Assembly: GCA_031763025.1 (NCBI GenBank)
Contig: JASSKH010000012.1
Coordinates: forward strand, 744,001-808,000
Reading direction: 5' to 3'
Length of the DNA: 64,000 bases
Source of the DNA: Macrocystis pyrifera
Taxonomy: Eukaryota; Sar; Phaeophyceae; Laminariales; Laminariaceae
Shown: positions 39,001 through 57,656 of the stretch, in pieces
How positions within the stretch are numbered: position 1 is the first letter of the stretch
Layout of the letters: each line of letters opens with the position of its first letter
The notes under the pieces: generated by a model
What the model was told of the DNA's origin: nothing
Databases searched by the model: none
Seen by the model: the letters and a program-made list of their open reading frames with translations, nothing else
Program-made: the position numbers and the translations under genes

Positions 39001-40960
39001 TTCCGTCGACACCGCCACCGCTCGCACCGTCGGAACCACTGTCCTGGTTGCTGCCAACACCACCGCTATAACCGGTGCAAAAGCCGCCTGCCTTGTCGTT
39101 GTCACTGCCGGGGGCCTACGTTGCCCTTCGCCGCCGCTCTTCCGTGGCAGCACACGGAACCGCAGCGATTGTCCGGTCAAACTCGTTCTAACACGGGCCA
39201 ATTCCCAGCGACGACAGTGGTTTACCCCTCAACCACGAGGGAGCCACCTCCCCGTCGCCAGCGGATATCCACCAGGGCCTTAGCCACCGCGTCGGCCTCT
39301 TGTCGACGATGAACAAGACGGCACTTATTTTCGATGTTGAATACACGAGGAGCCGTCGACGCCGGCCGCCGCAAAGAACCGCCGCAGGTTGCGGGTCACG
39401 ATCAACCGCCGTCCTAGGCTGGGGGGCCCGGGGGATACCGTGTGTTTTGTCGGCGTGACTTGCTACTCGCGATGACATTGGGGCCGCTTCGGACGACCAG
39501 AGACCGCCTTATATACCACCGGATTTGCCGCGCTGCTACACGCAAGTGCCTCAATGTTCCCAAGAGCCTAAAGGAAGCCACGCCCAGCTTCGGTAGGATT
39601 CGACGGGGTGCGAGTAGTATAGATCGCTGGATTCGGGGACGTTGGAAGCAGTGTAGCAATCAGTGGACAACTTCATCAACGAAAAGTTTGTTTTTGACGA
39701 GAAGGCCGACGAGTACGGCTGGCCAATCAAACCTAAGGCAAGACTTGTAGCGAGGAGGGATCAGCGGGGAATTAAATGTTATTTTGGACAATTGTTGGCG
39801 CCCACCGTTGCCGTCTCGAGTATTCGGATGCTGACAGCTATGGCCTGTGAACTAGATCTCGACTCGTGCCCCTTTGACGTTTGGACAGGCTTTCGTGCAA
39901 TCTGATCTCGAGGAAAATACGTTCGTGCGTTTGATTCAGGGTTGGGGAAGATTGTCAGGGAATATAATGAGACTGGACAAGAGTCTATACGGCCCAAAAC
40001 AGGCGTCGAGGCAGTGGCACGCGCATCTTGCTACATGTTTGCCTAAGTTAGGTTTCATGCAATGCCTGGCCGATGCATGCGGTTTTCATTTCATGGATGA
40101 GTGTAGTACAGTGATGTTCAAAGTTGTTCATGTGGATGACATATTAGCAGTAGGAGAGAAGGCGAGGTGCGACCAGTTAGGTAGAGACTTGAACCAGATC
40201 GTTCCGGTCAAGAACCTCTGAGAGTTGCGTTGGTATCTGGGTGTTTCTAAGAAATGGATTGGGAGAATGGCACAATGAAGATTTCTCAGCAGACGTTCGC
40301 TGAGCAGTTGGCAACAAAGTACGTGGTAGAGTACGGTAAGAGTGTCCCGCTCCCTGTTGGTACGAGACTTGCGGATTTCGACAAGAACGAAGCACCCGGG
40401 GATTGGCCGTTTCATGGGTTGGTAGGTACACTAATGTGGCTATCAACCCCGACCCGGCCAGACATTTCCGACGCAGTAAAATCAGTGGCTAGGTATTGCG
40501 CCGCTCCAGAGTTTTTACACCGGAGGGCAGCGCTGAATATATTGCGGTATGCGAGGAGGACGAGTTCATACGGGATTACATTTCAGAGAGGTACAGTAGG
40601 AGGTTTGAGCATTCAGGTGGTTGCTGACGTAGACTGTGCAAGTGTACCAGCTTATAGGAGGCCAGTTTCTGGAGGACTAGTCATGTGCGGGGGTGCTTGC
40701 TTGCCTTGGTTCTCTAGGACCCAGAAATGCGTCACGCTCACTACAACTGAGGCCGAGTACGTAGTGCTTGCAGGCGTTATCAAGGAAGTGCTGTTTGTCA
40801 GGCACGTCTGGCGGTTTTTGTGGTCGGGATGCCATGCATACCAGTGTTTGAGGATATTGAGGGTGCCGTGCAGCTTGCGCAGAACACCACCCCAAACTCT
40901 CGATCAAAGCATATTGACGTGCGGCACCACATTCTAAGGGACCTAGTAGCGAGAATATAG
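36050..40960 (+). mobile_element. Copia-family LTR retrotransposon, broken
   Basis: Plus-strand remnants appear in Copia order. A Gag-like part holds EPPKEYLARGSVLKSQLG (about 36,280-36,470). It is followed by a CAG-repeat and Arg/Gly-rich Gag tail (about 36,750-36,960) and a zinc-knuckle-like cysteine cluster (about 37,080). A protease region has words such as VDIPSGKDKVVIENVKA and is partly duplicated (about 37,800-38,030). Reverse transcriptase (about 39,660-40,220) shows KARLVARR, KSLYGPKQASRQWH and HVDDILAVG. RNase H (about 40,250-40,940) shows TTTEAEYV. Little integrase is recognisable. It is a fossil with several breaks, and flanking LTRs were not found. Confidence 0.85.
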
Positions 40961-41428: not shown

Positions 41429-41905
41429 ACACCCTGTACAATAGACAATGGCCCTCGCAATAGCAATAGATTCTGGTGCAATGGACGAGTTTAATGCCGT
41501 CGGCAAAGTCTATCGGTTGGCATGTTCCCCTATCCATTGCCGTCGATAATTTCTATGGATAGGTTACGTCTCCAACATATTGTTCAGGCAGGAGTGTGCT
41601 GAAGTAGCCGGGTTGAAAGCTGTTGTCACCGACAATGGCTATCGACGAATAGCTTGCAGAATCTATTGCGGTCGACAGTGGCTATCGATGAACACATTTC
41701 TTGATCTATTGTGGCCGGCAATGACTATCGATCAATGCATTTCTTAATATATTGTGACCGGCAATGGGTATCGATGGGCATGTTTCTGAATCTATGGTGG
41801 CCAGCAATGGGTATCGATAAATGCATTTCATAATCTATTGTGGCCGGCAAATGCTATCGATGGACACCGTTGAGAATCCGTTGGGTTGCACAATGTCTAT
41901 CGATG
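41429..41905 (+). mobile_element. array-bearing element with ACACCCTG terminus
   Basis: It begins ACACCCTGTACAATAGACAA, like the element at 50,781. It then runs into an array (about 41,610-41,900) of units of about 50 bp with TCTATTGTGGCCGGCAATGG and CTATCGATG words. The right end is not clear. The same array words occur at 53,510-53,870, indicating a dispersed family. Confidence 0.5.
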
Positions 41906-41991
41906 CACACCATCACCCGCCTATTTCCACGAACGTTCCCTGATTTATTGAGCAAAGCAATAATTTGTGCCCCAGCAGTGTCATACATTAA

Positions 41992-42765
41992 TGTTACGGG
42001 AAGCGACCCTATGCGCATCACGATTATGTACACCTGTGTATTGTCCTATTATTGCGTGAGACATGGTATTAAAGCATGCATTTCATTCTATGGTCTGACC
42101 GGTGTGGGTTCCCGGAGATCATGGCAAAAGTCGGAGGGGTAGGTCAGGCGGGTGACTCACGAGCGTGCAGATAACGTTCCAAGCATTCAGGGCGAGTGTT
42201 CCGTGCGTTCAGAGCACGCGTTTCGTGCCAGGGATTCACAAGTTCATCACATGTTCTCAGTTTGGTTCAAGTCCGTGCTTTGCAGTGATCGACATACCCA
42301 GCTCCCCCAGAGCCCCCCGCACGTTTAGTCGATCCCCTTCTATACTTTCCTTCTGAAGAACTACAACTCCGGGTTCACAAATATAGTGGTGAAATGTCCA
42401 GTAGTGGACAAACCTTGATAGTAGGTCTTCCTGGGGTAGCTAATTAGGCACTCTCATTGGCTAGCGGTATGTTTTACGCCGCTTAATAAAATTTCGAGTA
42501 TTTCCCAGCCACAGCATCTCGAGTCATCCCGAGTCAACCTAGAGTCTTCCCAAGCATCCACGCCGGCCGAGCCAACCTAGAATCTTAACATGCACAGCAT
42601 ACCAGCACTGACCACTGGCATAGGGTTAGGGTTAGGGTTAGGGTTAGGGTTAGGCTTCGGGCCGGAGGGTCGGCCTCAGGCTTCAAGCGTCCAACGCAAA
42701 ACCCCCATAAAGATCTACTATCAAGGTCTGTCCACCCCTCGAGATGTCCCCTGCTTGCTGTGACA
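41992..42765 (-). mobile_element. 3' LTR of a minus-strand LTR element, with MITE insertion
   Basis: It is bounded TGTTACGGG...CTGTGACA on the plus strand and matches the repeat at 47,779-48,160 along its whole length, apart from a MITE (42,399-42,740 plus its 8-bp duplication) and a gain of about 40 bp near 42,015. By eye the two LTRs differ at roughly 5% of shared sites, so the element is fairly young. Orientation comes from the polypurine tract next to it and the primer-binding site next to its partner. Confidence 0.8.
42399..42740 (+). mobile_element. hAT-type MITE with telomere-like core, copy 2
   Basis: The ends CAGTAGTGGACAAACCTTGA and the inverse GACCTTGATAG-type right arm pair over about 30 bp. 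The flanking 8-bp duplication is GAAATGTC (42,391-42,398) and GAGATGTC (42,741-42,748), one mismatch. Five TTAGGG repeats lie at about 42,620-42,652. The partner LTR at 48,136-48,143 keeps the uninterrupted GAAATGTC site, proving the insertion limits. No coding capacity. Confidence 0.88.
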
Positions 42766-42774
42766 TCCCCCCAC
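42766..42774 (-). other. polypurine tract of the LTR element
   Basis: On the minus strand GTGGGGGGA lies directly before the TGTCA start of the LTR at 41,992-42,765. That is the expected place for a plus-strand primer tract. Confidence 0.7.
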
Positions 42775-43019
42775 GTTCGATGTCGTCAGGCCGAAACAAC
42801 GAATCGTTAAAAGTAAACCCGAAGAGCAGAAAATTACTCTTCAAGATAACAGTAGAAAAAGCAAAATTCCCAGGGCATCTCGGGAAGGTAAAATTAGGAA
42901 TCCGAATAGCTCAAAATTCCCCCCTAACGTTTGTCTGGCTGTCTCTGTGCGGATATATTACATTTAGGTTAATGGTGTGCTTTGCTTCTGGCGATGATCT
43001 CAACTTCCCTACATTGAGT

Positions 43020-43570
43020 GTGGATGTGCTTTACGAATGTGGAGGTGGTTTCGTAGATGGGTTTACCGCTGGCTGCAACACGTTCATGACGCGTCATCGT
43101 TACATTCTGGTCTCCTCCAATGGTGTAAAGTTCTATTTCGTATACTTCGCGTGCTTCAACGTATTCGCAATACTCGTAGCGAATGTGGGGTGGATTTGTA
43201 TATGAGTTCACCACGGGCCGTCAGAAATTCATAATAGGTCCTCTTTGTACTTTCGCCTCCTCCCATTGCATAAAGTTCTGCTTCGCATGCTTCGCGTGCT
43301 TCAATACCCTGACACTACCCAAGGTTATTGTCTGATTCCGAGTAAGTAAGTCGTTTGAAGTACTGACGTTTACTCAACTCACTGGCACTAGCGAATGTGG
43401 AGGTGGCTTTGTATAAGGGTTTGCCACGGCGGTAAGAGATTCATGATGGGTCCGCTTTCTACTTTCGCATCTTCCTATGGGATAGAGTTGTATTTCGCAT
43501 ACTTCGCGTGCTTCAATTATTATCTGGTTCCTAGTAAGTCGTTTGAAGGTACTGACGTTTACTGCACCCC
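43020..43570 (+). repeat. tandem repeat, about 150-200-bp unit, three copies
   Basis: GAATGTGGAGGTGG(C/T)TT followed by TTCATGA(C/T), TACTTTCGCxTCxTCC and TTCGCATACTTCGCGTGCTTCAA recurs near 43,037, 43,183 and 43,395. The middle copy is the most worn. Confidence 0.7.
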
Positions 43571-43589
43571 CCCTGCATGAACACTGTCC

Positions 43590-43935
43590 ACTGGAGCGAC
43601 TCTTTTGCGCTAAAATTCAATCATGAGTGCTATACGGCGTTCGTTTACAACCACTTTCGAATCATACCCCTCGCGTACCGGTTTTGGTGGAAATATTTAC
43701 AGAAACGTTGTGACACCACCCCAGCACGGGAACTGTCACACGATACTCCAATCGGTGCAGATAAGATGACTATTTATAGTCGACGTTGGGAACCGCATCA
43801 AATGACAATATCAACACGATGCGACTCTTTCGTACTAGATCAGTCATGAGTCCTGAACGGCGTTCGCCCACAACCATTTTCAAATCGTACCCCTCGAATA
43901 CCAGTTTTGGTCGAAGTAGGTGGAGAAACACCCAC
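43590..43935 (+). repeat. direct repeat pair of about 110 bp
   Basis: GCGACTCTTT...CATGAGTGCTATACGGCGTTCG...ACCCCTCGCGTACCGGTTTTGG (43,597-43,690) matches GCGACTCTTT...CATGAGTCCTGAACGGCGTTCG...ACCCCTCGAATACCAGTTTTGG (43,820-43,915). About 225 bp separates corresponding points. Confidence 0.7.
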
Positions 43936-43974
43936 CGCTCGCCTTTGTCATGAAGACGGCATTCAATCTCTAAA

Positions 43975-44214
43975 AGGTGGCACGGTTCTCTAGTATCCTT
44001 TACGCAACATATACCCAAGGTGAGTGCATATAAATTGAAGGTGGTACGATGCTATAGTATCCATTGCCGATTATGTAACGGAGTAAACACAAACCGAAAA
44101 AGCGGCACGGTTTTCTAGTATCCTTACCCAACATGTACCCAAGGTGAGTGCATATAAATTGAAGGTGGTACAATGCTATAGTATCCATTGCCGAATATGT
44201 ACTGGGGTAAACAC
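43975..44214 (+). repeat. tandem duplication, about 120-bp unit
   Basis: GGTGAGTGCATATAAATTGA and GCTATAGTATCCATTGCCGA occur twice, at about 44,019-44,070 and 44,139-44,192. GGCACGGTT(C/T)TCTAGTATCC precedes each. Identity is high. Confidence 0.8.
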
Positions 44215-45090
44215 AAACCGAACCCCCCCGAACCTGACAAAACACACGTCTCGGGGGAGAGCTCACCATCATCTGCCCCTGCAATCACAAGTGCTCGCCT
44301 TCACTTCCGTCAAGGTGTTATGCCTTCAGTGCTTTTACCTGCACTGAACTCAACCCACGGGGGCGCTCACCCCGCCACAAACCCAGACCCCCTGCGCACT
44401 CAGCAGCACACAAGCCTACCAAACCCCTGGAAAACCCACAGCATGCAAACCTGAAGGAGGGGCTCACCTTCACCTCCCCTCTTGGCGATAGCATAATGGC
44501 AAGCGCTTACGTCCACTGTCAAAGGTGCTACACTCATCAGTGCTCACCTTCACTGACGTCATCTCGGGGGGCTCACCTCGCTAGGCCGCCTGCTAGGAAT
44601 GACAACGTGCTCACTCCCCATCAAGGTAGCATACGAAGAGTATCAAGTTATTTATAAACCCAACCCAGAACACCCGTCGCAGGGGAGAGCTCACACCATC
44701 ATCATATACCCCTGCAATGACAAGTGCCCACCTTCACTGCCGAGGTGCTGTGCCCTGAGTGCTTACCTGCACCGAACTCAACCTACCGCGGCGCTCACTT
44801 TGACATTAATCCAGACCCCAGGATACTCAGCAGCACACAAGCCTACCCAACCTCTGGAAAACCCACAGCATGCAAACCTGAGGGCGGGGCTCACCTCACC
44901 TCCCCTCTTGGCGATAGCATGATGACAAGTGCTTACGTCCACTTTTAAGGTGCTACGCTCACAAGTGCTCACTTCCACTGAGGTCATCTCGGGGGCGCTC
45001 ACCTCGCAATGCGCCTGCTAGTACTGACAACGTGCTCACTCCCCGGCATGCTACCAGACTCAGAGCACCAAGTAATCTATGAACCCACCC
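44215..45090 (+). repeat. tandem duplication, about 440-bp unit
   Basis: GGGGAGAGCTCACACCATCAT, ACTCAGCAGCACACAAGCCT, CCCACAGCATGCAAACCTGA and ACCTCCCCTCTTGGCGATAG occur once in each unit. The first is at about 44,215-44,655 and the second at about 44,656-45,090. No coding signal. Confidence 0.85.
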
Positions 45091-45260
45091 CCCCCCCCTT
45101 GTTTAGTGTGTTATGACATAGCATCGACAAAACAAGTCCGTTTGAAGGCTGGCCCAGCTCTTAGTGCCAGTAAGTAAATTAAATAATATCATGGTAGTTT
45201 GCAGAGTCTGTCCAGGACAACATGTCCGCTTATACTCGTGTAGGTGTTTTGGTTTTAGTG

Positions 45261-46034
45261 TGGCGTTTCTTATGCGGTTCGATTTTTGAGAGTCAGATTT
45301 TGACCCGATGGCATTTTCAGATATGAGCTTGACAAATCGAAAGGGCCTTCCTATACGGAAAAATCAGATTTATTGCGCCTATAGAGATTCGAGCAAACGC
45401 CGAGACCAACTGCTGTTTTTGTGATTTGGCGCCGGGAAGAGACGCTGGGTGCGTTGCCCTGGGCGTAGGACCCAAGCGTCCGAGCCCACGCTGACTGCCT
45501 CTAGTCTGGTGGCGAAGAGATGTGACGAGTGCGCCAGAGTCAACCTGTCTTGGTATTTTGTGTTTGATTTTGTGACTTGACTTGCTGTTGCTGTTGTACA
45601 GCTGCAGTGTAGTGTACGAGTACGTATCAACGGAGAGGCGCGTGCCAAGTGCTCTTCTCTTGGTCTCTAGGCCTGAGCCCGCGCCAGCGGACTCTAGTCT
45701 GGCCACGGAGGGACGCGCCGTTCGCGCGTCGGACGCGAAGCAACGTCGCTATACAGCTGTATCACCATCCAACTCATCGATCGTTCCGCTGCTGTTTGCT
45801 GTCGTGGATAACATCTTGAATTTAGAGAGCATGCCATTTTTCGATTTGAAAATCTGATGACGCAGGTCGTCGGATTTTGGGCCATATTCCGACGACTTGG
45901 GTCATTGGATTCTCAAAATCGAAAAAAAATCCGGTCGGATTTTGCATAATCGGACTGCATATGTAGGGTCATTCGATTTTGATATCGAAAAATACCAATC
46001 TGAAGCTCGAAATCGAACCGCATAGGAAACGGCC
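45261..46034. mobile_element. non-autonomous element with 40-bp inverted ends
   Basis: The left end TTTCTTATGCGGTTCGATTT is matched in inverse at the right by AAATCGAACCGCATAGGAAA (46,009-46,028), and the pairing extends to about 40 bp with mismatches. The 774-bp interior has no transposase. Further TCGGATTTTG words repeat inside the right half. The target duplication is unclear, so the superfamily is open. Confidence 0.6.
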
Positions 46035-46549
46035 TTAGTTTTTGGAAATTAGTGAGATTATTATTCCTTGGACTCAGTGTTGTTGTAAATCAGGGGGAAT
46101 CACATACGCATATTACTCTGACAACCGTCCAATGAGATGGTTGAAGTATCTAGAGCCAGCCTACCGGCATTTGATGGATGCTCGTCTGTCATGTCGCTGC
46201 TGTCGACGCATTATGATAGTTCTCTGGTAGTTCGAAGAGGCTATTCAAGTAGCGTGCCGATCCTACAGTGATTTCAAGCAGAACAAGACTTTACTATTAT
46301 CTGGTCACTTACAGCGGTAGTGGCTTGGTGGCGTACATTGCAGCAGCAAAAAATGTTGTGTATGTGGACGAGGCGGGTCTGCGTGCTTGCGTATGTATGC
46401 ATGTGGACGAAGCAGCGCGACGTCAGGGACTAGCGTTGGCATGCGTGTGTGCGTATGCATGTGAACGAAGCGTTGGTGTGCGTGTGTACGCGTGCATTTA
46501 TGTGGATGGAGCGTTGGTATGCATCATTAGTTTGACTTGAAAATGAAAC

Positions 46550-47703
46550 TGTTGGTGAACATGCATATTTGAGATGCATACGTTATTTCGATAATGCCAA
46601 AGAGTATGTGTACAAGCACAGTTGAAGCCGGTAAACGAGCATCCATATGAGCGAAGAAGCGGGCAGGCAAGCACGGCAAGGGAGACGTCCATGTAGTTGA
46701 AGCGGTGGTATGCATCACGTGTTTGACTTGCGAAATGACGTTGTACAAGTGCTATCATTCTCACCGAAAGGTAAAGAAATGTTGTTGGTGAACGTCCATA
46801 TTAGAGATGCACATAATATTTTCGATAATGTGATGGAGCATGTGTACAAGCACAGTTGAAGCTGGTAAACGAGCATGAGATCGAAGGAAGAAACGGGCAT
46901 GTAAGCGCAGGAAGCGACATCTGGCCTGGTAGTTGAAGCCGTGGTGTGCATCACGGGTTTGACATGAAAATTAAGTTGTACAAGTGGTATAAATCTCTCC
47001 GAAAGGTACAAGCAATGTTGTTGGTGAACGTCATAATAGAGATGCATACATTGTCTTCGATAACGTAATGGTACAAACAACGTTGTTGGTGAACGTCCAT
47101 ATTAGAGATGTATACATTGTTTTCGATAATGTGATGGAGCATGTGTACAAGCACAATTAAAGCTGGTAAACGAGCATACGATCGAAGGAAGAAACGGGCA
47201 TGTAAGCACAGCAAGCGACATCGGGCCTGGTAGTTGAAGCGGTGGTGTGCATCACGGGTTTGACATGAAAATTAAGTGCACAATTGATATAAATCTATCT
47301 GAAGGTGTTTGTGTTGGTGAACGTCGATATTAGAGATGCATGCCTTATTCTCGGTAATGCGATGGAGCATGTTGTTGTTGTTTGTTCACATTAAACCGTT
47401 CTTTCTACCCGTCGACATCCAGCACAACCAGTGTCCGTGCCGATTCTTCAATGCTAGAAAGATACAAGTTATGTGGTCACAAAGCTACGCCACAGAGATA
47501 CTACGTTGCCACTTATGCAATGCAACGCCATACCACGACAGGCACGACATACACGTTCCATGACGTAGAGAAACGAAACGAAACGAAACAAAGAGAAAAA
47601 AAACAAAAATGTGTACCAGCACAGGTGACGCCGACAAACAAGCATGCGATCGAAGGAAGAAGCGGTCATGCAAGCACAGCAAGCAACACTGCCTGGCAGT
47701 CTA
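46550..47703 (-). repeat. tandem array in LTR-element leader, unit about 230-290 bp
   Basis: Units start with TTGGTGAACGTCCATATTAGAGATGCATAC at about 46,552, 46,785, 47,020 (a 64-bp partial), 47,084 and 47,310. They pass through GTGTACAAGCACAGTTGAAG and GATCGAAGGAAGAAACGGGC to GTGTGCATCACGGGTTTGAC. The last unit is split by the retroposon at 47,367-47,612 and resumes until the tRNA-Glu sequence. In element orientation the array lies just after the primer-binding site. Confidence 0.8.
47367..47612 (+). mobile_element. dispersed 240-bp retroposon, copy 1
   Basis: It opens with GTT repeats and has the core CTTTCTACCCGTCGACATCC...GCTACGCCACAGAGATACTACG. It closes with GAAACGAAACAAAGAG and an A-rich tail. 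It interrupts an array unit: GAGCATG before it and ATGTGTAC after it join to the GAGCATGTGTAC found in other units, with a possible 3-bp duplication. Other copies are at 52,963-53,290 and 54,263-54,560. The A-rich end suggests retroposition, but no pol III boxes were recognised. Confidence 0.65.
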
Positions 47704-47778
47704 TCCTTCGTAGTCCAATGGTTAGGATATATGACTCTCACTCATGAGACCCGGGTTCAATTCCCGGCAGGGGAGCCA
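47704..47778 (+). tRNA. tRNA-Glu(CTC) sequence with encoded CCA, at an LTR boundary
   Basis: The sequence has a D arm (GTCC/GGAT), an anticodon arm with loop CTCTCAC (anticodon CTC, Glu), a perfect T arm (CCGGG/CCCGG around TTCAATT) and a 3' acceptor strand CAGGGGA. It continues G then CCA, and the LTR begins at the next base. The 5' acceptor strand TCCTTCG pairs imperfectly: two G-T pairs and one mismatch. Nuclear tRNA genes do not encode CCA, so this looks like a copy of a mature tRNA. Its last 18 bases are where the primer-binding site of the minus-strand LTR element should be. A real tRNA gene with a chance CCA is the alternative. Confidence 0.75.
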
Positions 47779-48160
47779 TGTTACGGGAAGCGACCCTAGT
47801 ATTGCGTGAGACATCGTATTAAAGCGTGCATTTCATTCTACGGTCTGACCGGTGTGGGTTCCCGGAGATCATGGCAAAAGTCGGAGGGGTAGGTCAGGCG
47901 GGTGACTCACGAGTGTGTAGATAACCTTCCAAGCATTCAGGGCGAGTGTTCCGTGCGTTCAGAGCATGCGTTTCGTGCCAGGGATTCACAAGTTCATCAC
48001 ATGTTCTCAGTTTGGTTCAAGTCCGTGCTTTCCAGTGATCGACATACCCAGCCCCCCCAGAGCCCCGCGCACGTTTAGTCGATCCCCTTCTATGTTTCCG
48101 AGGAACTGCACCTCCGGGTTCACAAATATAATGGTGAAATGTCCCCTGCTCGCCGTGACA
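47779..48160 (-). mobile_element. 5' LTR of the minus-strand LTR element
   Basis: The 382-bp repeat is bounded TGTTACGGG...CCGTGACA and matches 41,992-42,765. Read on the minus strand it ends ...CCCGTAACA. The next bases are TGGCTCCCCTGCCGGG, a primer-binding site complementary to the 3' end of tRNA-Glu. It keeps the empty site GAAATGTC (48,136-48,143) that the MITE occupies in the partner LTR. Confidence 0.8.
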
Positions 48161-48500
48161 TTATTTTTCTGATCACGACCAGAATGGAATGAGTGCATGG
48201 TGTATCGTGATGAGCAGCAATGTGGGTGCATGGCATAGCGTCAAGGAGGGCTGCAACGCTGTGTGTCTCAACAAGGCAGTGGGCACCATGGGGGTTAAAT
48301 GTGTTGCATTGTCGGCTGTCTTGTTGTGGTTGGTACTCTGTGTTATTAATAGTGATTCTTGGTCGGATACACTCTGTGCGTGTAAGAGGTCGATCATTGC
48401 CTTCACACAATGACCCTGGAAACGTGTTTGTCAATGGTCAGTCGACCAAAATAGACTGGCCGCGCTGTCTAACCTTTAGACATTGTCAGCAACAATAGGT
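48161..48500. other. no gene recognised
   Basis: Short open frames on both strands, none with motifs. No repeat partner was found. Confidence 0.4.
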
Positions 48501-50780: not shown

Positions 50781-52947
50781 ACACCCTGGACAATAGACAA
50801 TAGTCCAATAGTCTATTAATAGCTTCCTTTTGCAATTGACTGTCTATTGTGGTCCCTAATTCCAGTTAATTGAAAGGCGTCGTGCTCTATTATGCAGACA
50901 ATTTCTATTGAGTGACCCCTACCTGACCCTATTGTCCAGACAATTTCACTTTATAGGTAGTCTCCGTAATCAATGGTGCGGACAATTCCAATTAATGGAC
51001 CTTCTCCTCAATAAATTGTCCGGCCAATTCCAATTGACAGACTGTCTCCTGAATCAATTGTCCTGACAATTCCAATTGATAGTCGGCCCCTCGAAATAGT
51101 TGTCCGGACAATTGCAATTAGTAGACTGACGCCAAAAGTATTTGTCCCGACAACTCCAAATAATAGACAGTCTCCCAGATCAAATGGCCCGGAAATTCCA
51201 ATTTATACACAGTCTCCAAAATCGATTGTCCGGACAGTTTCAATTAGCAGATTGCTTTCTAAATCAATTGTCCGGGCAATTCCAATTAATAGACGATATA
51301 CAACATCGAATATCCCGACAATTTCGACCAATACGACATCTCCAAAACTGCTTCAGACAATGCCATGATTGGGGGGCAGTCTCCTAAATTATCTGCCCGT
51401 ACATTACAAAAACAACAGTGCATACGGATTACTTCGTTTCGTGATTTTGTTTTTATTGATTACATCTGAGCACATGGGCTTCGTAAGCGGTATCAAACTT
51501 CCTACTCGCGGACATAAAATACAGAGCTAACGTTCAGGTGTCCCGCCCTTTTCTGCTTATGCCTTGGACAATAGACTTATCAATAGACTATTGCCCTCAC
51601 AGCAGAGTCACGAAGCTGTCTATTAATTGGAATTGTCCGGGCAAATAATGTCATAGACTGTCTATTAATAGCAATTGAAATTATTTAGACAACTGATCTT
51701 GGATACTGTCTAACAATTGGATATATTCGGAAAAATTGATATCGGGCACTGTTTAACGATTGGAATTGTCGGACAAATAATTTTGGAGACTCTCTATCAA
51801 TTGAAGTTGCCCTGAAAATTGATTTTAGAAACTGTCCATTAATTGGAATTGTCTGAACAATTGATGTCTGGTGCTTTTCAATAATTGGACTTGTCCAGAC
51901 AAATGAGCTCGGAGACTCCCTATCAGTTGAATTTTTGCTGGCAAATGATTTCACAGGCTGTCTCTTAATTGGAATTGCTTGAACGATTGATTTCGGGTGA
52001 TTTACGTGAAATGGACTTGTCGGGGCAACGGCTTTGAGATACCCTCTATTAACTGGAATTGTCCGGACAATGGGATTCAGAAGCGATCTACTAATTGGAA
52101 ATGTCATGACTATCGAGTTTAGGAGGCCTCTGTTACTTGAAAGCTGGCAGCTACTCGTAGAACTACATTTGATTTGGTCAGAACAGTACCACCATGCTAG
52201 TATTGCCTCTACAACAGGACCGGGAACTTCCCTCAATACGCAGTCTTACGAGTATTATCAATTCAATGGGGCGTGTCTATCGTAATACAACAACTACTGC
52301 AGGTACACGGCCATGACATTTATCGAGCAATTGATTTCTTGCGCGGCATCTGAAATGAATGGTGCGGACAATTCCAACTTTTTCCGGTCGCCGAAGTCCG
52401 TTTGGACAATGCCATTTAATTGACACCACCCGAAATTAATTGTGCGGACAATTTCGGTTTTTAAGCAGCAGCCGAAATCAAATGCTCAGACAAATCCAAT
52501 TAGTAGACAGCTCCCAAAATCAATTGTTTGAACAATTTCAGTTAGTGGACAACACCCGAAATCAATTGGCTGGACAACTCCAACTATTGGACAGCACCCG
52601 AAATCAATTTGGTGAATAATTCCAGTTAGTTGGCAGTCTCCGCAACCAATTGCTTGGACAATTCCAATTCATAGACAACACTCGAAACCTATTGCTCACA
52701 CAATTCCAACTAGTAGATGGTATTCGAAATCAATTGCCTGGACAATTCCAATTCACATAGACAATAGCCGAAAACAATTGCCTGGCCAATTTCAGTTAAT
52801 GGGCAATCGCCGAAATGAATTGTATTGTCAATTTCAATTAGTAGACAGTCACAAAAAACAGTTGTCAAGACAAATCTAATTATCACACATCCTCCTGAAT
52901 CGATTGTAGACACGATAGACCATTGAAATAGTAATTGTCCAGGGTGT
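50781..52947. mobile_element. 2.2-kb element with ACACCCTGGACAAT ends filled with 42-bp repeats
   Basis: The left end ACACCCTGGACAATAG and the right end ATTGTCCAGGGTGT are inverted repeats of about 14 bp. The interior is three arrays of units of about 42 bp centred on the palindrome AATTGTCCGGACAATT, followed by CCAATTAATAGACAGTCTCC. The first (50,850-51,400) and third (52,310-52,920) arrays run in one orientation and the middle one (51,550-52,140) in the other. There is no coding sequence. The superfamily is unknown. Confidence 0.7.
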
Positions 52948-52962
52948 AAATTTTATGTATTT

Positions 52963-53255
52963 ATATATTTCTTGTTTCTGTTTCTCTTTCGAATTGTCTT
53001 TGTTTGTTTGTTTGTTTGTTTGGTCTCTTTGTTTCGTTTCTCTAGGTCATGGAATGTGCGTGTCTTGCCTGTCGTACGCAGTATGATGACGTGGCATTGC
53101 ATTGCATACGTGGCAACGTAGTATCTCTGTGGCGTAGCTTTGTGACCACATAACTTGTATCTCTCTAGGGTTGAAGAATCGGCATGGACACTGGTTGTGC
53201 TGGATGTCGACGGGTAGAAAGAACGGTTTAATGTGAAGAAATCAACAACAATGGC

Positions 53256-54262: not shown

Positions 54263-54560
54263 CACATAATTGTTGTTGTTGTTGTTGTTGTTGTTTTTCT
54301 CACATTAAGCAGTTCTTTCTACCCGTCGACATCCAGCACAACCAGGGTCCGTGCCGATTCTTCAATCCTAGAGAGACACATGTTCTGTGGTCACAAAGCT
54401 ACGCCACAGAGATACTACGTTGTCACGTATGCAACGCAAGGCCATGTCATCATACTGCGTGCGACAGGCACGACATGCACATTCCATGACCTAGAGAAAC
54501 GAAACGAAACAAAGAGAAAAATAAACAAAAACAAAGAAGACAATTCGAAAGAGAAAACGA
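54263..54560 (+). mobile_element. dispersed 240-bp retroposon, copy 3
   Basis: The plus-strand copy starts with seven or more GTT triplets. It has the core TTCTTTCTACCCGTCGACAT...GCTACGCCACAGAGATACTA and an A-rich tail with GAAACGAAACAAAGAG. An additional ATCATACTGCGTGCGACAGG segment is shared with copy 2 but absent from copy 1. Confidence 0.7.
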
Positions 54561-56099: not shown

Positions 56100-56940
56100 G
56101 TGCATATCTATTTAATTAAACAAAATTGTGACGTGAAAGAACCATGGCCGTGACCGCGGTTGAAAGCTGCGTCGCCAGCCGCGGAGCTGTTTTATGTTTT
56201 TGAAATTGCAGCATTTTTAACAGGAAATACAGCGGGGGGGGTTTCACACTATGAATGGCACATTCTTGAAAATTTTCATCTTTCTTGTCATACCATGGGG
56301 TTATGCTGTATCGGACGTTTGCTTCAGTCTGGAGTGGAGTCTAGCTTTGGTTGTCGTTAGGGGAACGCGGTGCGATGGTGTCGTGCCGAGTCTTATGAGG
56401 TTAAATCGGGTCAGGTCATCACTCGTAGTCTGTGCCTTACCACACTCCATACTCACACGTTGAGGTTTGAACGCGTTGTGTCGAACATTGAAGCGACCTG
56501 ATTAACCGCAGTTGTCACTCGGGCCACCATGAAGGGTATACGCACGTAGAATAGTGGTACGATGAACCGTCTCGACAGCGAGCGTACCTCACCAGCGAGA
56601 GGGGCACTGGCATACCAATATTACGCGATAGAACAACCAACACGTGAAGTGATACGCTTTTACGACCCGGACGAGCATCCCATTATTGTTGAACACAACT
56701 GCATAAGTGTTTGCCCTATGGTAATAGTCGCGGTAGATGACACCCGGATCAGCACCTATAGAATTTTCTGAAGTTGTTCGCGACCGCCACGATCGATGAA
56801 CGATTGTATTGTAACTGTTTTCGGCGAATGTTAGATACTCGACCCATCACTTCAAACTTATCGATTTCTTTTTTTGTTTTTCATGTATATGTGTTAGACC
56901 TCGGTGCGAAGGGTTTGTCTCCTTGTTATGATGACTAGGA
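56100..56940. other. no gene recognised
   Basis: No motif-bearing frame was found. The N-terminal helix-turn-helix part expected for the PIF transposase was looked for here and not found. Confidence 0.4.
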
Positions 56941-56944
56941 CACG

Positions 56945-57656
56945 GTGATATTTTATTTGTGTACATTTGCAAACGGGCATCGTTGTGTTGTACGAGCTAA
57001 AAGTGCACTCTGTGAATGTTATCCCCACAGGAACGTCATCGGTGGCATAGATGGCAGTCACATCAGGATTCCTGGCCCAGACGAAGAACTCCTACTCGAC
57101 TACTATAACTACAAGAAGTTCTACTCCATCGTATGTCTGACTACAGTGGACCACGTGGGGAGGTTCAGGTGGTTCTGCTCCGGATGGCCGGGCTCATGCA
57201 GAGACAGCGGTGTACTGCGGGCCACCGCGTTTTACAAGCTGGTGCAAGAAGAGTTCTCCAAGCCCATGGAAGAACGAAAAACTTTCACGGACAGATCATG
57301 CATTCTGGGCGACTCCACCTTCGCGGAGGGGGGTGTGGATGCGAACGCCGATAACTCTCCCGCAAGAGAGGGCAGAGCCGTACTTTAACTACAAGCATTC
57401 CCGCATGCGTATGCGCGTGCAACACGCTTTCGGCCGACTGAAGTGGACGTTCCTCGCCATGCAACGCGGCCTACTGTTCAAGCTAGATCATGCACCGATA
57501 ATCATCGACGCTTGTGTGATTCTGTACGACTTCATCCTCCAACACGAGGGCACCTGTCCTCGCACGTGCACATTGACGACGCTCAGACGAGAGGTGGTAC
57601 GGGCAGAGGCCCTGGTGAGACTTCTGCGAGGAGGGAAGCTGAGGTTGCTTACCTGA
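56945..57656 (+). pseudogene. PIF/Harbinger transposase (DDE_Tnp_4), degraded
   Basis: PIF/Harbinger transposases cut and paste DNA in the nucleus with a DDE triad. The first part reads GGIDGSHIRIPGP, with the first Asp, then YYNYKKFYSIV and a VDH...GWPGSCRDSGVL block typical of the family, then ILGDST with the second Asp. The frame then slips within the six-G run at 57,328-57,333. The rest, FNYKHSRMRMRVQHAFGRLK, continues in another frame. The usual third catalytic Glu (VERAFGRLK in the family) is Gln here (CAA at 57,420-57,422). The N-terminal part is missing. A splice-acceptor-like CCCCACAG at 57,023-57,030 precedes the conserved part. It is inactive on two counts. Confidence 0.85.

Follow-up and report, generated by a model that had tools for sequence, protein, structure and literature searches.

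Complete tRNA-Glu sequences at the primer-binding site of an LTR retrotransposon family in the giant kelp Macrocystis pyrifera

Introduction

LTR retrotransposons and retroviruses usually carry, as the primer-binding site, the complement of 8–18 nt of the 3′ end of a tRNA, and plus-strand transfer is thought to need a stop where the primer tRNA carries a modified base, about 18 nt in. Why, then, does a complete tRNA-Glu sequence with its CCA end adjoin an LTR in the genome of M. pyrifera? The window, i.e., the whole stretch of DNA that was analyzed, comprises 64,000 nt (assembly GCA_031763025.1, contig JASSKH010000012.1, positions 744,001 to 808,000 of the forward strand). A preliminary description, made from the letters of this window, had explained the joint by reverse transcription or strand transfer extending over the whole primer tRNA, and had suggested a possible permanent capture of the tRNA by the element if other copies also have all 75 nt. 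The present study places the window copy in its element, in the family to which this element belongs, and beside the host tRNA-Glu genes.

Results

Structure of the window element

A tRNA-Glu(CTC) with CCA was called by ARAGORN at 47704–47778 as the sole tRNA in the 64-kb window, and Rfam RF00005 likewise gave a single tRNA match in the window, at 47704–47775 (57.3 bits, E 9.7e-10). The LTR start, TGTTACGGGAAGCGACCCTA, lies at 47779, directly after the tRNA CCA, so the joint without an intervening base was described correctly. This LTR start occurs without mismatch at two window sites, 47779 and 41992 (none in 100 shuffles). The two direct LTRs have TG...CA ends and are recognized as a repeat of 299 nt with 96% identity (42045–42343 vs 47795–48093), together with a further piece.

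The copy at 41992–42765 is followed by TCCCCCC, which is a polypurine tract on the minus strand, and no tRNA adjoins it, as expected of a 3′ LTR. The element is therefore located on the minus strand, and a plus-strand element with the tRNA beside its 3′ LTR was rejected because the polypurine tract adjoins the LTR lacking the tRNA. Since the element reads on the minus strand, the antisense tRNA inside it fills the primer-binding site; the direct tRNA–LTR joint of the preliminary description stands, and its orientation is corrected in this way. The order in the element is thus 5′ LTR (48160–47779), tRNA complement, leader repeats, internal region, polypurine tract, and 3′ LTR (42765–41992). The features, with their basis, are as follows:

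41988–41991, no strand: TTAA, possible target-site duplication, one base off its partner (flank comparison)
41992–42765, minus: 3′ LTR with an insert of ~345 nt at ~42400–42744 (repeat comparison)
42766–42772, minus: polypurine tract, GGGGGGA in element sense, adjoining the 3′ LTR (sequence; context common to 74 genome places)
42773–46585, minus: internal region, parts homologous to loci L091 and L092 (locus comparison, ORF domain scan)
46586–47380, minus: 5′ leader, repeats of ~235–300 nt common to other copies (repeat comparison)
47381–47609, no strand: other repeat inserted in the leader, with further copies at 53003–53241 (inverted) and 54295–54535 (repeats, low family coverage)
47690–47701, plus: TGCCTGGCAGTC, probably left from the 5′ end of a decayed older tRNA (read by eye)
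47704–47778, plus in tRNA sense, minus in element sense: complete tRNA-Glu(CTC)-like sequence with CCA in the position of the primer-binding site (ARAGORN, Rfam, family comparison)
47761–47778, minus: conventional 18-nt part of the primer-binding site (comparison with host tRNA-Glu)
47779–48160, minus: 5′ LTR, 382 nt, TGTTACGG...CCGTGACA as on the plus strand (repeat comparison, tree)
48161–48164, no strand: TTAT, possible second copy of the target-site duplication (flank comparison)

The 5′ LTR of 382 nt compares with ~422 nt in most copies read, ~40 nt being missing near its tRNA-side end. The insert of the 3′ LTR (42400–42744) contains TTAGGG-type telomere-like repeats and is covered by about one other locus read.

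No Pfam domain above the cut-off was detected in eight internal ORFs of the window element, L091 and L092, and no gag-pol coding capacity was found in these ORFs. At the same time, the long internal region is conserved between the three loci, as in LARD-like elements, and the family is apparently a large non-autonomous LTR retrotransposon. A copia-type reverse transcriptase fragment (RVT_2) is present in the window at 39856–40221 (+); this ORF was rejected as a part of the element, being on the opposite strand and outside the LTR pair. Elsewhere in the window, a DDE_Tnp_4 transposase match is split over two frames (56939–57656, +), and arrays of 42–43-nt repeats occupy 41623–41904 and 50897–52868.

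Comparison with host tRNA-Glu genes

The nuclear tRNA-Glu genes shown are of two types, TTC and CTC, of 72 nt each, mostly with T-runs downstream and without CCA, as stated in the preliminary description for nuclear tRNA genes. They differ at positions 6, 34, 66, and 67, numbered along the 72 nt; the positions tabulated for the isoacceptors were 6, 34, 67, and 68, the last of which is identical between the types. The window tRNA is a mosaic: it agrees with the host CTC type at positions 6 and 34 (anticodon) and with the host TTC type over the last 18 nt, with 18/18 identity of 47761–47778 to tRNA-Glu(TTC) plus CCA against 16/18 to the CTC type. The identity given earlier as tRNA-Glu(CTC) thus holds for the anticodon and requires correction at the 3′ end. 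A T at tRNA position 4 is specific to this copy. Upstream, TGCCTGGCAGTC agrees in 11 of 12 bases with the tRNA stretch of L064 and is followed by TA and then by the complete new tRNA (comparison by eye), so the window copy probably keeps a remnant of an old tRNA upstream of the new one.

When the sequences upstream of 63 element tRNAs were compared with 14 host-gene loci, matches lay only within tandem tRNAs (L004, L035), apart from a single 14-nt match in L110. The same tRNA-Glu with its upstream flank at a locus without the LTR would be evidence against the copying of the primer and was not found in the loci read; the host genes have other flanks.

The family across the genome

The genome (G000, 537,376,219 bases, 223 contigs) was searched with a junction pattern of 26 nt (9 from the tRNA and 17 from the LTR), with up to three mismatches. 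At least 84 tRNA–LTR places were obtained, 42 per strand, and none with the reversed control; the pattern of the polypurine tract and LTR gave 74 places and none with its control. For 28 of the 84 junctions, a polypurine-tract-side LTR lies at most 50 kb away with the expected side and strand, against four in another arrangement, and the distances in these 28 pairs ranged from 4.1 to 40.2 kb (median 19.1 kb, nested inserts included). Five matches to the decayed tRNA that score above the tRNA-Glu gene matches lie outside both the 84 places and the loci read; in four of them a polypurine-tract LTR lies within 16 kb on the expected side and strand. These are probably further family copies, which would make 84 a lower bound.

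The junctions read numbered 64 of 84 (44 in fetched loci and 20 more), of which one (L058) is rearranged and 63 are alignable; one chance pattern match in L001 was dropped from the alignments. In 61 of these 63 junctions the tRNA-like sequence extends into the first 9 nt of the tRNA; the junctions are not 63 independent insertions, since 13 near-identical rows represent one amplified subfamily (L082–L086, L089, L090, L093, L097–L099, L107, L109) and L076/L077 and L094/L095 are duplicate sets. When aligned locally to host tRNA-Glu, 47 of the 63 begin at nt 1–4, 14 at nt 7–9, L072 at nt 28, and L103 at nt 26; in L103 the tRNA stretch ends in the anticodon region with a TCTCAC common to an inverted LTR piece (by eye). 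So, the whole tRNA at the primer-binding site is a trait of the family and not of the window copy alone, and the suggested permanent capture is borne out, mostly by decayed sequences. End to end, the difference from the nearer host isoacceptor is at most 2 in 5 of the 63 junctions, at most 4 in 10, and at most 8 in 15, and larger in the rest.

In the amplified subfamily, the copies on the small contigs C2, C15, C17, C62, C75, and C158 (L082–L086, L089, L090) have a CTC-type tRNA 3′ end, and the tRNA ends on C180 and C200 resemble those of this subfamily. Its seven longer loci have another LTR start ~230 nt after the first, with leader-like sequence between.

Except in L058, all junctions read have the tRNA beside the same LTR end. 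In paired copies the tRNA lies at the inner side of one LTR, and 4-nt target-site duplications are located at the outer ends. Among nine LTR pairs, the duplication is exact in three (GTTG in L005/L020 and in L012/L011, CATG in L079/L024) and agrees in 3 of 4 nt in three more (L019/L029, L022/L028, and the window); none was found in L003/L025, and L006/L026 gave one only with a one-base shift. The duplication test does not apply to L002/L030, as a polypurine tract occupies the place at L002 where the outer flank is expected. This locus (G000:C213:7991432-7991921) has one LTR with the tRNA on one side and the polypurine tract on the other, like tandem elements sharing an LTR.

LTR copies without a match to the primer-binding site, the other sort of counter-evidence sought, were mostly 3′ or second LTRs. 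Among the 21 LTR copies read without a tRNA at the usual place, 11 have the polypurine tract and are thus 3′ LTRs; L030 has a damaged polypurine tract, seven are second LTRs of the amplified subfamily, and L004 belongs to an inverted pair. L023, with neither tRNA nor polypurine tract, is perhaps a solo LTR.

Informative copies

L033 is identical to host tRNA-Glu(TTC) plus CCA at 75 of 75 positions, and its nt 1 is joined to a leader site other than the usual one. A standard leader joint, AAGCACAGCAAGCGACA, precedes tRNA nt 1 in many copies, both fresh (near host sequence) and decayed. In L035/L078, two tRNAs stand in tandem: the CCA of a CTC-type tRNA, which begins at its nt 5, directly adjoins nt 1 of a TTC-type tRNA, and the CCA of the latter adjoins the LTR. 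L009 is a mosaic in the direction opposite to that of the window copy, and L057 has CTCGTAGTTCCAA before its tRNA, which is similar to TGCCTGGCAGTC of the window. L004/L071 has two inverted LTRs, between which a second, shortened tRNA is attached to the first; in L004/L015 (G000:C195:439250-440227), inverted LTRs enclose two tandem tRNA-Glu stretches.

ARAGORN called tRNA-Glu in the window copy, L004, L005, L008, L009, L063, and L078, tRNA-Ala in L065, and no tRNA in most other tRNA-bearing loci given. The decayed copies, in which mostly no tRNA was called, have common derived changes, including a lost base in the T arm. Their origin as a copy of another host tRNA was considered and rejected, since matches to tRNA-Glu genes reach 89% (40 of 98 candidates scored).

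Fresh and decayed tRNAs

The divergence of LTR pairs in fresh types was 4.4% (window), 3.8% (L005), and 5.3% (L033), corresponding to 1.6, 1.4, and 2.0 expected changes per 75 nt since insertion. The tRNA changes seen were one in the window (from the CTC/TTC mosaic), no substitutions and one 4-nt insertion in L005, and none in L033. For decayed copies, LTR divergence was 5.2% (L003), 6.6% (L006), 5.1% (L012), 5.4% (L019), and 5.8% (L079), with 8, 15, 9, 13, and 12 substitutions, respectively, from the TTC host sequence against 1.9–2.5 expected. The comparison of seen and expected changes indicates that the window copy, L005, and L033 were probably inserted with a perfect tRNA and the other five with one already decayed; the similar LTR ages of these three and five insertions argue that whole-tRNA copying recurred.

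In 11 fresh-type copies, tRNA positions 8–57 differ by 4.3% per pair and the LTRs by 10.2%; as the groups were picked by tRNA type, the low divergence of the fresh tRNAs is partly so by construction, and their LTRs are no closer. In 11 decayed copies the values are 14.9% and 10.9%, and fresh and decayed LTRs differ by 10.4% per pair. In decayed copies tRNA 8–57 diverges more than the LTR, so the tRNA is for the most part not maintained in them, and selection for the whole tRNA was not supported; this suggests that the distal part of the tRNA is dispensable in these copies. The 18-nt site of decayed copies differs by 1.1% per pair, below the LTR value, with a bias from the part of the copies chosen by a pattern containing 9 of those bases. 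In the decayed lineage the binding site departs from the exact tRNA-Glu sequence, and renewal of the primer sequence thus does not take place in every round. In the LTR tree, 5 of 47 inner branches are starred, fresh and decayed types are not separated, and the tree is too weakly resolved to settle the order of events.

Discussion

According to the reading that we prefer, with a probability of about 0.8, the primer-binding site of this family is the complement of whole mature tRNA-Glu with CCA, and read-through of the primer followed by rejoining explains the family. Plus-strand strong-stop synthesis would pass the usual 18 nt and continue to the 5′ end of the primer tRNA. DNA over-extended in this way could then pair with an existing 75-nt site and replace all or part of it, jump by microhomology into the leader (leader CCTGGTAGT, which resembles tRNA CTTGTAGT, is a candidate), or jump end to end onto the old site, in which case the old tRNA, whole or as a remnant, would remain next to the new one. 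The tRNA would thereafter be inherited with the element, decaying in most lineages. As a 75-nt site would let full-length strong-stop DNA pair, capture would make later read-through harmless. This mechanism is inferred from genomic fossils. No reverse transcriptase of the family was found in the eight internal ORFs scanned, and the read-through is therefore tied to no particular enzyme.

Most of the whole-tRNA stretches are decayed and inherited. At the same time, the 75/75 copy, the tandem isoacceptors, the mosaics, and the old remnant support the view that the whole tRNA was copied more than once, and with it the copying of the primer by reverse transcription or strand transfer as first proposed. 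A stronger version, in which full-length copying is a working step of reverse transcription, with the 75-nt site accepting full-length plus-strand strong-stop DNA and fresh types re-inheriting both primer sequence and isoacceptor, is less likely than not.

Persistence of one ancient tRNA-Glu capture, with the near-perfect copies forming a slowly changing lineage, would account for the leader joint AAGCACAGCAAGCGACA common to many copies of both types and for the derived changes shared among decayed copies. Such a history is strained by two isoacceptors in tandem and does not suit mosaics in both directions, the separate leader joint of L033, or old remnants beside new tRNAs; moreover, the LTRs mix the types (10.4% between fresh and decayed against 10.2 and 10.9% within them), in a tree that is weakly resolved. 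We consider it unlikely. Renewal of the stretch by gene conversion with nuclear tRNA-Glu genes, with no copying of the whole primer after the first capture, could draw on many host genes of both types; however, the CCA between the two tRNAs of L035/L078 cannot come from genes that lack it, the L033 tRNA begins at a leader site away from the usual one, and, the 14-nt match apart, no flanks of the 14 host-gene loci precede the 63 element tRNAs. As a general explanation it is distinctly unlikely, and it is possible as the source of the distal tRNA part in copies with the ordinary leader joint.

Some LTR elements target tRNA genes, and an insertion beside a genuine tRNA-Glu gene might have produced the window arrangement. 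No tRNA gene in the outer flank, as in such elements, was found; the tRNA occupies the inner LTR side, with duplications at the outer ends, the same LTR end is involved at all junctions read but L058, CCA is present, and host-gene flanks are absent. This origin is refuted for the family, and we consider it scarcely credible. That the element carries a working antisense tRNA gene and makes its own primer would fit the ARAGORN calls in the window copy and six loci, where internal promoter boxes may be intact. Against it, ARAGORN gave none in most other tRNA-bearing loci and tRNA-Ala in L065, decayed copies transposed with the tRNA already broken, and in the host genes shown at least five consecutive Ts mostly occur within ~20 nt, whereas the LTR mostly has four Ts ~30 nt on; a functional gene is thus very improbable.

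The family resembles ordinary LTR elements and retroviruses in its LTR pair, polypurine tract, and complement of a CCA-bearing tRNA 3′ end beside the 5′ LTR. The tRNA-complementary site after the 5′ LTR is, however, far longer than usual: it is the complement of all 75 nt, and the part beyond position 58 was apparently copied. LARD-like non-autonomous elements share the LTRs, the polypurine tract, and a long internal stretch, which in the kelp family has no coding domains in the parts scanned, but the kelp family carries in addition a complete primer tRNA. According to a review, the plus-strand strong stop normally ends before m1A58, and unmodified tRNA can be copied as far as its 5′ end, a product not listed among those able to act as active templates (PMC13191261). 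The same review describes a primer over-extension sequence of lentiviruses and spumaviruses for small overruns, to about position 55 (PMC13191261). There, too, element sequence at the primer-binding site matches the primer further in and accepts over-extended strong-stop DNA, whereas the kelp family matches the whole tRNA. A tRNA-primed LTR element in the reference list of PMC5371799, compared by its title, is similar in that decayed kelp copies also keep a non-host site, and differs in that fresh-type kelp copies appear to take up the whole primer sequence. No precedent for a whole tRNA at the primer-binding site was found in the literature searched, including passages of PMC7472051, PMC5371799, and PMC13191261, with subscription papers mostly outside the search.

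If the preferred reading holds, dozens of whole-tRNA sites record read-through events that were productive enough to integrate. These sites would point to the primers used, i.e., both tRNA-Glu isoacceptors, and inheritance of primer sequence becomes testable by comparative genomics. Note also that, in genomes of this kind, a tRNA call with CCA may belong to an element.

Two loci stand somewhat apart. L053 (G000:C197:2739266-2739340) is a CTC-type tRNA-Glu-like copy with CCA and without an adjoining LTR, perhaps a retrocopy of mature tRNA, and copies of mature tRNAs may thus arise by other routes as well. In L058 (G000:C193:10800520), the LTR end is followed by TGGC and then by a sense tRNA-Glu without CCA, an arrangement that resembles a change from antisense to sense tRNA inside the acceptor stem.
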